This document shows positions 4,830 through 27,228 of a stretch of DNA of 64,000 bases, piece after piece. The DNA is from an uncultured Actinomycetes bacterium. Its GTDB lineage: Bacteria; Actinomycetota; Acidimicrobiia; Acidimicrobiales; RAAP-2. Under the pieces are notes generated by a model. It was given only the letters and a program-made list of their open reading frames with translations. It was not told the origin of the DNA and did no database searches. The stretch spans positions 1-64,000 of the forward strand of contig CAIUMH010000038.1 in NCBI GenBank assembly GCA_903900235.1. The letters are read 5' to 3'. Within the stretch, counting starts at the first letter, position 1; each line of letters starts with the position of its first letter. The translations under genes were made by a program, and so were the position numbers.

Positions 4830-5921
4830 CTAGGGAGCGGTCACCCGTCCGAATCCGGCGAGATCCTTCCAGAAGATCGAGTTGAGCTGAACCAGAGACC
4901 CTGCGTGCGGGGCGTCGATCATGATCCCGTTGCCGACATAGATGCCGACGTGACCGATGTCGCGCTCGAAGAAGACGAGGTCGCCCGGCTGGAGGTCGGT
5001 GAACGAGATCCGAGTCGTTGCCGCGAACTGATCCTTGGCCACCCGAGGCAGGGTGACCCCTCCTGCCGACCATGCCTGTTGGACCAGCCCCGAGCAGTCG
5101 AAGGCCGTAGGACCGGCGGCCCCCCAAGAATACGGCTTGCCGATCTGATCGGTGGCGAACGTCAGTGCCGCTGGCGCACCGGCGAGGACGCCAGCAGGGT
5201 CCACCACGCCCTTGGGAAGCCCCAGACTCCCGGCCCGGAGCATCCTGGCCACCCCTGAGTCTCCAGCGAGCTCGAGCTGAGCCAAGGCCGCCTTGGTCGG
5301 GCCATCGATGGTGGCCAGCGTGACGAGTAACTCCGCCTCGCCGGCCCGGGCCTGATGCAGGGCCTTGGCCGCTACCCGCCGATGTGACGCCGCGGTGGCC
5401 TGGTTGGCGATCGCCTGCTCACTGGCAGTCCGGCGAAGGTTCCGGAGCCATTCGAGTTCGGAAAGCTTGGCGGCCAGCCCTTCACCCACCACAGCGCCAT
5501 AGGCTCGAGATATCTGCTGGACGTTGGCCGCCGACGGACTCATGAACTGCGCAAGTGCACCCGCATGGATGTCGCTACCGACATAGGCCCGAATCACCAG
5601 CCGCTGCGCCTGATGACGCAGGTCACGGTAGGCCCCGGCGGTGGCGGCCAACTGGCCCGCAGCCACTCGAGCGGCCGTGGTTGCAGAGTGTGCAGCTTGG
5701 GTGGCGCGCAAATACTGGGCATCGAGCCGATCGAGGGTCGTCGTCATCGCCCGGATCCGACTCAGGAGGTCGCTTGCGGCGCGCGTCTGCGCCACCGTTG
5801 GTTGAGGCGGGGGTGCCGCGGAGACTGCGGTCGCAGGAACGACCACCAGCCCTCCGGCCATCACCCAAACCAGAGCACGTTGAGCCCAAGCGGTCAGGAG
5901 CGGCGTTCGGACTCGGCACAT
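4830..5921 (-). CDS. NlpC/P60-family peptidoglycan endopeptidase with N-terminal coiled coil
   Basis: Signal peptide; AFDCSGLVQQAW, LQPGDLVFFERDIGHVGIYVGNG. Confidence 0.92.
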   Translation of the reverse strand: MCRVRTPLLTAWAQRALVWVMAGGLVVVPATAVSAAPPPQPTVAQTRAASDLLSRIRAMTTTLDRLDAQYLRATQAAHSATTAARVAAGQLAATAGAYRDLRHQAQRLVIRAYVGSDIHAGALAQFMSPSAANVQQISRAYGAVVGEGLAAKLSELEWLRNLRRTASEQAIANQATAASHRRVAAKALHQARAGEAELLVTLATIDGPTKAALAQLELAGDSGVARMLRAGSLGLPKGVVDPAGVLAGAPAALTFATDQIGKPYSWGAAGPTAFDCSGLVQQAWSAGGVTLPRVAKDQFAATTRISFTDLQPGDLVFFERDIGHVGIYVGNGIMIDAPHAGSLVQLNSIFWKDLAGFGRVTAP

Positions 5922-19891: not shown

Positions 19892-21283
19892 TCACCCACC
19901 TGCCTTGATCTGCTGGATGAGGGTGGTGACCTGCTCGTAGAGCTGGCGCTTCTCTCCCATCTGATCGGTGATCTTGTCAACGGCGCTGATCACCGTGGAG
20001 TGATCCCGACCACCGAAGACCTTGCCGATCGATGGATAGGAGTAGTCGGTGAGTGAGCGGACGAGGTACATGGCCACATGGCGGGCGGTGACGAGGGGGC
20101 GGGCCCGTCGGGGACCGGTGAGCTCCTCGACGCTGAGGTGGTAGTACTCGGCAACGGCCGCGAGGATCATGTCCGGGGTAATCATGGCGGCCTCGGAGCC
20201 GATGTCAGGCAGCACCTGAATAGCCAACGCCAGAGAGATGGGCTCGCCGGTTAATGATGCGAAGGCGGCGACCCGGGTTAGCGCCCCTTCGAGCTCCCGG
20301 ATGTTGTCGCGCACGTTGGTGGCGATGAACTCACAGACGTCATCGGGTAGGTCGATTCCCTCGAACTGTGCTTTCGCCCGCAAGATAGCCATCCGGGTCT
20401 CGAGGTCGGGGGCCTCGATCTCGGCGACAAGACCCGAGAGGAGCCGGCTACGGAGACGATCTTCGAGCTTCTCGATGGACTTGGGCGGACGATCAGAGGT
20501 CAGCACGATCTGCTTGCCAGCCGAGTGCAGCGTGTTGTACGTGTGGAACAGCTCTTCTTGGATCGCATCCTTGTTCTGGATGAATTGGATGTCGTCGACG
20601 AGTAGGACGTCGCATTCCCGGTAGTTCCGTTTCAGCGCCAACTGGGTCTTGCGCTGGATTGATTCGACGAAGTCGTTGAAGAAGGTCTCCGTCGTGACGT
20701 AGAGCACCCGGCTCGAGGGTCGGGTCTGGACCATCCAGTTACCAATGGCATGGAGGAGGTGAGTCTTGCCGAGACCAGATCCGCCATAGATGAAGAGGGG
20801 GTTGTAGGACCGGCCGGGGGACTCGGCCACGGTCTGGGCGGCGGCTAACGCCATACGGTTGGACTGGGCAGACACGAAGGTATCGAACGTAAACCGGGGA
20901 TCGAGCCGAATCCCGTCAGCCGGGGCGGCCGACACCCGGGGCGCAATGGTTCGGTTGTCGGACTGCGGTGGTGTCGCAGCCGGGGCGTCAGCGCCGATCG
21001 GGAACACCTCTTCAAAGGCGAACTCGGGAGCTTCGGCGACCACCAGCTCGAGGCTGATCTCGACGGGCCGACCTGCCGCCGCTGACGCCAGGTCTCGGAT
21101 CAGCCCAAGGAAACGCTCAGCCACCTTGCTTCGGACATAGTGGCTTGGAACACCAAGGATCAAGTTGTCCCCAGACATATCCACAGGTGTGACGAGTGAC
21201 AGACAAGTTTTCCACACAACATCAGAGACGGATTCCTGCAGGGAAGGCCTGCATTTTCCCCAGATCTCGGTCATCTCGTTCAT
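19892..21283 (-). CDS. dnaA: Chromosomal replication initiator protein DnaA
   Basis: LDPRFTFDTFVSAQSNRMALAAAQTVAE; GLGKTHLLHAIGN; FGGRDHSTVISAVDKI. Confidence 0.98.
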   Translation of the reverse strand: MNEMTEIWGKCRPSLQESVSDVVWKTCLSLVTPVDMSGDNLILGVPSHYVRSKVAERFLGLIRDLASAAAGRPVEISLELVVAEAPEFAFEEVFPIGADAPAATPPQSDNRTIAPRVSAAPADGIRLDPRFTFDTFVSAQSNRMALAAAQTVAESPGRSYNPLFIYGGSGLGKTHLLHAIGNWMVQTRPSSRVLYVTTETFFNDFVESIQRKTQLALKRNYRECDVLLVDDIQFIQNKDAIQEELFHTYNTLHSAGKQIVLTSDRPPKSIEKLEDRLRSRLLSGLVAEIEAPDLETRMAILRAKAQFEGIDLPDDVCEFIATNVRDNIRELEGALTRVAAFASLTGEPISLALAIQVLPDIGSEAAMITPDMILAAVAEYYHLSVEELTGPRRARPLVTARHVAMYLVRSLTDYSYPSIGKVFGGRDHSTVISAVDKITDQMGEKRQLYEQVTTLIQQIKAGG

Positions 21284-24203: not shown

Positions 24204-24836
24204 ATGGCCTCCACGCCACTTGACGACGTGGAGGCCGTCCTGGTGAAGAGCCGGGATTTGGGCTTCCTGGGGCCCGGCGATGTCGGGCCCCAGATCACCC
24301 ATGCTGCAGCCTTTGCGGCAGCAGCGGAGGTTTCACTCCCCCACCCACCCCAGCGAGTGGTGGACATGGGGTCTGGAGGAGGACTCCCGGGCCTTGTGCT
24401 GGCGGCACTCTGGCCTGAATCGGCGATTGTCTTGCTCGACGGATCTACCCGCCGCTGTGAATTCCTCGAGATGGCGGTCGACGAACTCAATGCCGCTGAC
24501 CATGTGACGGTACGGTGCGGCCGAGCTGAAGACCTGGCGCAAGATCCATCGATGCGGGGAACCGCCGACCTCGTGGTGGCGCGCTCCTTCGGAGCCCCAG
24601 CTGTGCTGGCGGAGTGCTCGGCGGGAATCCTTGAGGTTGGGGGACATCTGCTCGTGTCGGAGCCACCGGATGAGGACCTGGGGCGCTGGCCCTCTGCAGG
24701 ACTCGCTCAGCTTGGTTTCGGACCCGCCCAACTGGTCACGGCCGGAGCCCGGTTCGCGCTGATCCCGCTGAACAGCGCATGTCCCGATCGCTTTCCTCGG
24801 CGAGTCGGAGTTCCCAGCAAGCGTCCCCTCTTCTGA
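24204..24836 (+). CDS. rsmG: 16S rRNA (guanine527-N7)-methyltransferase RsmG
   Basis: RVVDMGSGGGLPGLVLAALWP; jag-rsmG-parAB context. Confidence 0.9.
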   Translation: MASTPLDDVEAVLVKSRDLGFLGPGDVGPQITHAAAFAAAAEVSLPHPPQRVVDMGSGGGLPGLVLAALWPESAIVLLDGSTRRCEFLEMAVDELNAADHVTVRCGRAEDLAQDPSMRGTADLVVARSFGAPAVLAECSAGILEVGGHLLVSEPPDEDLGRWPSAGLAQLGFGPAQLVTAGARFALIPLNSACPDRFPRRVGVPSKRPLF

Positions 24837-24843
24837 CGCAACA

Positions 24844-24859
24844 CGTTTCACGTGAAACA
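24844..24859. promoter_or_regulatory. parS: parS site 1
   Basis: cGTTTCACGTGAAACa, perfect 14-bp palindromic core. Confidence 0.93.
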
Positions 24860-24957
24860 TGCCGGGAGAACCGATGCTGGAGTCCTTGAGGTGGCCCGGC
24901 TGGTACCTCTTGCTGGTTTGATGAGATCGAGCAAGCGCCCTCTGTCCTCACCCAACA

Positions 24958-24973
24958 CGTTTCACGTGAAACA
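24958..24973. promoter_or_regulatory. parS: parS site 2
   Basis: cGTTTCACGTGAAACa, exactly 114 bp after site 1. Confidence 0.93.
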
Positions 24974-25071
24974 TGCCGCGGGAGCCGCTGTTGGAGTTCT
25001 CCGGACGACTTAGTTGGAACTCCTGGTGGGCGTGATGACAGCGAGCAAGCGTCCCCTGCCCTGGTTCGACA

Positions 25072-25087
25072 CGTTTCACGTGAAACA
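25072..25087. promoter_or_regulatory. parS: parS site 3
   Basis: cGTTTCACGTGAAACa, exactly 114 bp after site 2. Confidence 0.93.
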
Positions 25088-25142
25088 TGACGAGGTGCGT
25101 GCTGCTGGCCGGCGACCCTTCGAGATTCAGTCCCGGGGATCA

Positions 25143-25158
25143 GGTTTCACGTGGAACA
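25143..25158. promoter_or_regulatory. parS: parS site 4 (one mismatch)
   Basis: gGTTTCACGTGGAACa, 71 bp after site 3. Confidence 0.75.
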
Positions 25159-25253
25159 TTACGATCACCGCACCTGCTCAGATCCTCGCTTGACGTCAGT
25201 GAGCAGACGGGGCAGTATTGGTCGGTGCTCACCCCGTCAACTCAAGGCTACTG

Positions 25254-26309
25254 ATGGCAATCTGGCGAAAGAACCGGGAGGGCTCGTTCTCCCCTGAGCC
25301 GACCGAGATGACTGACGCTCCAGGAGTGGATTCTGGGACCCAGCCTGTATCGTCGGTAGACGCTGTATCAGGCCCGGAGAGCACCGAGGTTCCCGAGGTG
25401 ACCGCGACCACAACCCACCAGGATGGCCCGCCCGCCTCGCCGGATCCTGAGGTTGCTGAAGCCCCGCAAGCGCCGACAATTGAGCCTGTGGCCGAGATCG
25501 ACGGAGAACCATCGATCGATACATACCGCCCACTCCCCCGCATCCTGGCCGTGGCAAACCAAAAGGGTGGGGTGGGCAAGACCACGACCACCATCAATCT
25601 TGGTGCCGGTTTGGCGGAGTTGGGCTATCGCGTGCTGGTCGTGGACTTGGACCCCCAGGGCAATGCCACCACGGGCCTGGGAATCCAGCGGAAGAACTTT
25701 GAGCACTCGATGTACGACGTCATTATGCGAGAGCACCCCCTTGAGGATGTCATCGAGCCCACAAGCGTCAAGAACCTCTTCGTGGCCCCTGCAACGCTGG
25801 ACCTTTCGGGGGTGGAGATCGAGCTGGTCCCGGCGTTCAGCCGTGAGATGAGGCTCAAGCGAGCTCTTGAGCCGCTTGAGGAGGACTTCGACTTCGTTCT
25901 GATCGATTGTCCCCCCTCCCTTGGGCTGATCACGATCAACGCTCTCTCGGCCGCCGGGGAGGTGCTGGTTCCGATCCAGTGCGAGTACTACGCCCTTGAA
26001 GGCCTCAGCCAGCTGCGCAACACGCTGAAACTGGTGGCGGGCAACCTGAATCCCAGTCTCGAGATGTCCACCATCGTGCTGACCATGTTCGACTCGAGGA
26101 CGCGGCTGGCTTCCGACGTCCGAGACGACGTTCGAGCACACTTCCCCGATCAGGTGTGCGACACCATCATCCCTCGGACCGTCCGCCTCTCTGAGGCTCC
26201 GTCCTTCGGGCAGCCGATCACGACATTCGACACGAACTCCCGGGGAGCACATGCTTATCGGGCCCTGGCACAGGAGGTGAGCGGTGGCGCGCCGAAGCGG
26301 GCTGGGTAA
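25254..26309 (+). CDS. parA: Chromosome partitioning ATPase ParA/Soj, with long N-terminal extension
   Basis: ILAVANQKGGVGKTTTTINLG deviant Walker A; possible TTG start at 25218. Confidence 0.95.
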   Translation: MAIWRKNREGSFSPEPTEMTDAPGVDSGTQPVSSVDAVSGPESTEVPEVTATTTHQDGPPASPDPEVAEAPQAPTIEPVAEIDGEPSIDTYRPLPRILAVANQKGGVGKTTTTINLGAGLAELGYRVLVVDLDPQGNATTGLGIQRKNFEHSMYDVIMREHPLEDVIEPTSVKNLFVAPATLDLSGVEIELVPAFSREMRLKRALEPLEEDFDFVLIDCPPSLGLITINALSAAGEVLVPIQCEYYALEGLSQLRNTLKLVAGNLNPSLEMSTIVLTMFDSRTRLASDVRDDVRAHFPDQVCDTIIPRTVRLSEAPSFGQPITTFDTNSRGAHAYRALAQEVSGGAPKRAG

Positions 26310-27228
26310 GGGTCTCGGGGCGCTGATCCCCGGTGACACGAGTGAAGCGGCTGACGGAGTCCTTCGTGAGGTTCCGATCGGATCCATCACGCCGAACTCC
26401 TTCCAGCCCCGCGACCATTTCGATGAGGAGCAGATCGCCTCACTTGCGGCCTCCATCCGTGAATTGGGTGTCCTCCAACCGATCCTGGTGCGCCCAGTGG
26501 GCGACGAGGGAGACTCCTTCGAGCTCATCGCCGGGGAGCGCCGATGGAGGGCGGCTCGCCGAGCCGGCTTGGCAACCATCCCGGTGCTGGTCCGGATCGA
26601 CACGTCGGACCAGAGCAGCCTTGAGCAGGCCCTGGTGGAAAACCTCCACCGGGCTGACCTGAACGCCCTTGAGGAGGCGGCTGCCTACCAGCAGCTGATC
26701 GACGAGTTTGAGCTTACGCATGATGATGTGGCCACAAGGGTCGGCAAAAGCCGGGTTGCGGTCACCAATACCCTGCGACTGCTTCAGCTCCCCGCTGGTG
26801 TCCAGCGGGCGATCGCCGACGGTGAACTCACGGCTGGCCACGGACGGGCCCTCCTCGGTACTCCAGACAGGGCCCTGCAGGAGTCCTTGGCGGCAACAGT
26901 GGTGGCACAGGGCCTTTCTGTCCGGGCTACCGAGGAGCTGGTGCGCTCGGGCGGTGTTGTCGAGGAGGATGAGACGACCGACGAGGAGGCCACCGCCACC
27001 ACGGCGGGAACCCGACCGCCAGAGCCTCGCCGCACGGCACCGCGCCCACTGCCCCCCGCGGGCATCGTGGAGCTCGAAGACTTGCTGTCGTCCCATCTTG
27101 AGACCCGGGTAAAAGTGGACCTCTCGGCGAAGCGGGGCCGGCTCATGGTTGAGTTCGCAACCCTTGAGGATCTTGAGCGAATCTACCGCCAGATGCTTGG
27201 TTCGCAGCGCTCTCCCGACACTCCCTAA
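26284..27228 (+). CDS. parB: Chromosome partitioning protein ParB
   Basis: GLGKGLGALIPG; NSFQPRDHFDEEQIASLAASIRELGVLQPILVRP; GERRWRAARRAGL; GTG start overlapping parA. Confidence 0.97.
   Translation: MARRSGLGKGLGALIPGDTSEAADGVLREVPIGSITPNSFQPRDHFDEEQIASLAASIRELGVLQPILVRPVGDEGDSFELIAGERRWRAARRAGLATIPVLVRIDTSDQSSLEQALVENLHRADLNALEEAAAYQQLIDEFELTHDDVATRVGKSRVAVTNTLRLLQLPAGVQRAIADGELTAGHGRALLGTPDRALQESLAATVVAQGLSVRATEELVRSGGVVEEDETTDEEATATTAGTRPPEPRRTAPRPLPPAGIVELEDLLSSHLETRVKVDLSAKRGRLMVEFATLEDLERIYRQMLGSQRSPDTP

Follow-up and report, generated by a model that had tools for sequence, protein, structure and literature searches.

A parS array that probably grew by tandem copying of a module containing the end of rsmG

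Introduction

In the chromosomal ParABS clusters described in B. subtilis, C. glutamicum, P. aeruginosa, M. xanthus and C. crescentus, several redundant and closely placed parS sites lie beside parAB and the origin, each built on the same 14-mer palindrome as the sites described here (PMC7083940, PMC4368675, PMC3899335). In C. glutamicum and P. aeruginosa, segregation needs no more than one parS (PMC7083940, PMC4368675), and in vitro the condensation force grows with the number of parS sites, an effect that the authors credit to a greater rate of ParB loading (PMC8299390). The centromere of plasmid F, sopC/parS, consists of twelve 43-bp tandem repeats, most of which carry a ParB-binding inverted repeat (PMC6238139).

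Here we analyse a parS cluster in a stretch of 64,000 nucleotides (the window) from an uncultured bacterium of the Acidimicrobiales. Unlike the chromosomal clusters above, three of its four sites lie in recognisable tandem modules that include a piece of the neighbouring gene. Like sopC, it is a centromere with tandem direct repeats; sopC differs, however, in belonging to a plasmid system of type Ia, with another ParB, another motif, and shorter and more numerous repeats.

Results

The window contains an origin region in the standard layout, dnaA-rnpA-yidC-rsmG-parA-parB, with dnaA on the minus strand (19892-21283); dnaA, rnpA, yidD, yidC and jag were labelled by position and reading frames. 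A ParB with ParB_N and HTH domains is encoded beside ParA (Pfam), the start of its gene overlapping the end of parA (26284 versus 26309), and several 14-bp GTTTCACGTGAAAC palindromes lie close to the origin, as in a ParABS system (Table 1). The N-terminal extension of ParA (25254-25540) precedes the ATPase domain and shows little conservation among relatives, whose ParA matches often start at query residue 30-95. The C-terminal GVPxKRPLF of RsmG is kept in relatives; a plasmid origin of rsmG was rejected, since the gene had no match in a plasmid collection. The probable parA promoter was missed by a strict sigma-70 scan; in four congeners and two sister-genus genomes its TTGACG element likewise lies 3' of the final parS. 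A fixed distance from the last parS to this promoter was ruled out, as it ranges from 13 to 49 bp across relatives.

Table 1. Coordinates of the parS array, its repeat units and the neighbouring genes in the window.
Feature	Position	Strand	Basis or remark
rsmG (gidB), 16S rRNA methyltransferase G	24204..24836	+	Pfam GidB 4e-21
Repeat unit 1: rsmG tail, parS1 and 71-bp spacer	24816..24929	+	repeat search and Tandem Repeats Finder
parS1, GTTTCACGTGAAAC	24845..24858	.	perfect palindrome
Repeat unit 2	24930..25043	+	82/114 identical to unit 1, gap-free
parS2, GTTTCACGTGAAAC	24959..24972	.	perfect palindrome
Partial repeat unit 3: rsmG-tail copy and parS3 only	25044..25092	+	family D2, three 49-nt copies, 84-88%
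parS3, GTTTCACGTGAAAC	25073..25086	.	perfect palindrome
parS4, GTTTCACGTGGAAC	25144..25157	.	1 mismatch; outside the repeat; position counterpart of the congeners' parA-proximal parS
Probable parA promoter: TTGACG, 17 bp, CAGTAT	25190..25218	+	comparison with G001, G002, G003, G005, G018, G033
parA	25254..26309	+	Pfam AAA_31 1e-65; ~90-residue N-terminal extension
parB	26284..27228	+	Pfam ParB_N, HTH_ParB, ParB_C

A motif scan recovered the arrangement given in the original prediction, with three perfect sites at exact 114-bp steps and a fourth at +71 (ending at 25157, where 25158 had been proposed). Allowing up to two mismatches, 4 parS matches were observed in the 64 kb against 0.06 expected, and the whole genome holds four, all of them in the gap between rsmG and parA. 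The spacings of 114/114/71 bp correspond to 10.86/10.86/6.76 turns at 10.5 bp per turn, so that the predicted figure of about 11 helical turns for the 114-bp step is more exactly 10.86.

Tandem Repeats Finder reported a single array at 24816-25089, with a period of 114, 2.4 copies, 75% matches and 1% indels. The repeat does begin inside the 3' end of rsmG, as had been predicted, although at 24816 rather than 24817, and the module's first copy opens with the last rsmG codons (SKRPLF*). Units 1 and 2 align without gaps at 72% identity (82/114, close to the 80 or so identities previously counted by hand; 68/100 excluding the 14-mer). Computational alignment, which had been put forward as the check on their homology, placed the inter-site DNA of these two units at z=14-16 above shuffles, homologous and in register, as expected of a tandemly duplicated module. 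The description of the array as gapless 114-bp repeats thus holds for units 1 and 2, which are complete, but not for unit 3: past its rsmG tail and parS (~49 nt) similarity is at chance level, and the third interval (25087-25143) has no inter-site homology above chance. Likewise, copies 1 and 3 match exactly the GCAAGCGYCCC said to precede three of the sites, but copy 2 reads GCAAGCGCCCT, ending in CCT. The 14-mers of the array are intact at 14/14 positions (3/3 sites perfect), and the remainder averages 68% identity.

The locus was compared within a genus sample of six genomes, comprising the window species and five congeners, each of the latter having exactly two parS sites. In four congeners (G001, G002, G003 and G005) the rsmG-parA gap is intact and contains both sites, 46, 46, 48 and 49 bp apart, together with one rsmG tail, and in the fifth (G004) the two sites fall on two contigs. 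The rsmG stop comes before the first parS, and the TTGACG element shared with the congeners lies after the last one; parS1 and parS4 thus match the two ancestral sites in position. The two extra modules of tail and parS present here are absent from the congeners, and the four-site 114-bp layout is confined to the window species among the genomes compared. With one tail and two parS sites, the congeners bear out the proposal that the array expanded by tandem duplication of a segment including the rsmG tail. Outside parS, units 1 and 2 differ by 32% (JC 0.42 substitutions per site). Four-fold sites have diverged further than this from G003, the nearest congener (91/171 or 53% in parA, 68/103 or 66% in rsmG), and the copies therefore appear to postdate the split.

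Across several genera of the family, the commonest layout is a parS doublet with a spacing of 44-49 bp (14/69 adjacent spacings of up to 350 bp; loci L036, L037, L039, L040, L041, L042, L043, L055, L183, L198, L205 and L207). The parA-proximal pair of the genus and of near relatives belongs to this class; the window species has no such doublet. At L042 (genome G018), four parS spaced 45/161/46 bp resemble a duplicated doublet upstream of parA.

Tandem parS modules are found elsewhere, with repeats of 55 bp (L093), 63 bp (L105 and L155), 56-58 bp (L107), 106-109 bp (L127) and 126 bp (L180). Within the same family, loci L202, L208, L215 and L217 (genomes G116, G169, G174 and G123) have homologous inter-parS spacers, with periods of 298 bp, 153 bp and 110-111 bp in the first three, and homologous spacers also occur in Bacilli, Clostridia, Lachnospiraceae, Oscillospiraceae, Arthrobacter, Rhodospirillales and Chthonomonadaceae. 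Such homology between successive sites points to tandem duplication in these genomes. The periods of these recurring modules range from 55 to 298 bp, often with a drift of 1-3 bp; they differ from that of the window array, and the spacer sequences are unrelated to it. Tandem multiplication of parS is therefore an ordinary and already recurrent route, not one unique to this locus. The exact spacings at L208 (153/153 bp) and L202 (298/298 bp) are independent of the 114-bp repeat in the window. In a Bacilli MAG (L093, ~5385-5900), a 55-bp array holds nine perfect parS, with one interval doubled to 110 bp and successive units 76-100% identical and gap-free.

The original prediction had also suggested that spacing and helical phase may be selected, and had proposed comparing the rsmG-parA region across relatives modulo helical pitch. 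In that comparison the congeners' spacings of 46-49 bp amount to 4.4-4.7 turns versus 10.86/6.76 here, and spacing is not kept modulo pitch across relatives. Adjacent spacings above 52 bp in the family (n=50) show no helical phase (R=0.129, p=0.44). When all 69 adjacent spacings of up to 350 bp are taken, the cluster below 53 bp included, R=0.211 and p=0.045, a signal that we read as reflecting the 44-49 bp length class, not phase. A single scan of at least 117 stretches from many phyla, in which pairs were counted regardless of relatedness, gave at least 115 perfect adjacent parS pairs 99-129 bp apart, again with no phase (R=0.138, p=0.13, 10.5 bp); exactly 114 bp separates one of the pairs listed. 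With no congener at 114 bp and no phase in either the family or the cross-phylum sample, the suggestion was not upheld.

It is accordingly unlikely that the 114-bp spacing is selected because the assembly of ParB or ParA requires a fixed helical face or distance. The argument for such selection is that all 32 differences between units 1 and 2 are substitutions and none is an indel, whereas other tandem parS arrays, when pooled, have 52 gap openings against 287 mismatches, a ratio of ~0.18 that predicts several indels here. However, two pairs that align poorly (L202 and L215) inflate this ratio, which is also very uneven between arrays, and the chance of finding no gap runs from ~0.2 to 0.003 for ratios from 0.05 (assumed) to 0.18. 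Gap-free yet diverged arrays also exist at 55, 63 and 126 bp (L093, L155 and L180), and other homologous arrays drift by 1-3 bp (L107, 56/58/57/57; L127, 107/106/107/109/106; L215, 111/110/109). Moreover, the window genome itself mixes 114/114/71 bp, its congeners use 46-49 bp, neither of the samples shows phase, and ParB slides away from parS (PMC8299390). The absence of indels at ~32% divergence is thus the sole residue favouring selection on spacing, weak and not unique to this array, and suggestive only. Purifying selection on the length of the parS module in this lineage, removing indels and tolerating substitutions, is similarly improbable; if it were acting, the distance between adjacent loading sites would matter for clamp loading or bridging.

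The rsmG-derived part of the repeat permits two further explanations. It is very unlikely that the rsmG tail has been retained in units 2 and 3 as a further functional DNA element beside parS: its copies are slightly better conserved (18-20/26) than the spacer of units 1 and 2 (39/65), but the difference is small, synonymous positions of the tail codons vary freely in congeners, the tail DNA of relatives is unconserved beyond its codons, and the congeners' second parS has no tail copy before it. Searches for RNA families, promoters and terminators at the tail copies found none, and an RNA element in the array was rejected for lack of an Rfam match. Least credible of all is a reading of the array as coding DNA, an rsmG extension in decay in which 114 bp are 38 codons and the SKRPL frame is kept. 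Although 114 is divisible by three and the TTTCACGTGAAACAT frame gives FHVKH in every unit, substitutions between units 1 and 2 have no codon-position bias (29/25/28 of 38 matching), stops interrupt the frame (TGA at 24834-24836 and another in unit 2), and RsmG ends at KRPLF or a few residues beyond in the relatives examined.

Discussion

Given the observed homology of the units, their copy number and the lack of extra modules in congeners, we consider it very probable that this array represents ordinary growth by tandem copying of a ~114-bp module, with a spacing that was inherited, not tuned. The starting point would have been a normal chromosomal ParABS system with its parS cluster in the origin region. 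After the split from the congeners, a segment of ~114 bp, running from the last rsmG codons through the first parS, would have been duplicated in tandem, so that two added modules of rsmG tail and parS came to be inserted between the ancestral rsmG-proximal (parS1) and parA-proximal (parS4) sites. Since tandem copying produces equal spacing, the equal 114-bp distances would be a legacy of duplication; purifying selection would since have held the 14-mers as the spacers drifted. For the 65-bp spacer common to units 1 and 2, no source above shuffles was found in the rsmG coding sequence (its own or that of G003) or in the parS3-parS4 spacer, and a simple one-step duplication is therefore not fully reconstructed.

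If every parS is a loading point for ParB-CTP clamps, which then slide away along the DNA, the extra sites would raise ParB loading near parA and the origin. The simplest function for the array would thus be to supply additional ParB loading sites and redundancy, with no geometric code, and at the available resolution the answer to whether neighbouring parS sites must share a helical face is negative. The locus illustrates how a bacterial centromere may grow: parS number can rise when a module that has taken in part of an adjacent gene is duplicated in tandem, and tandem copying of parS has occurred repeatedly, at differing periods, within this family and across phyla.
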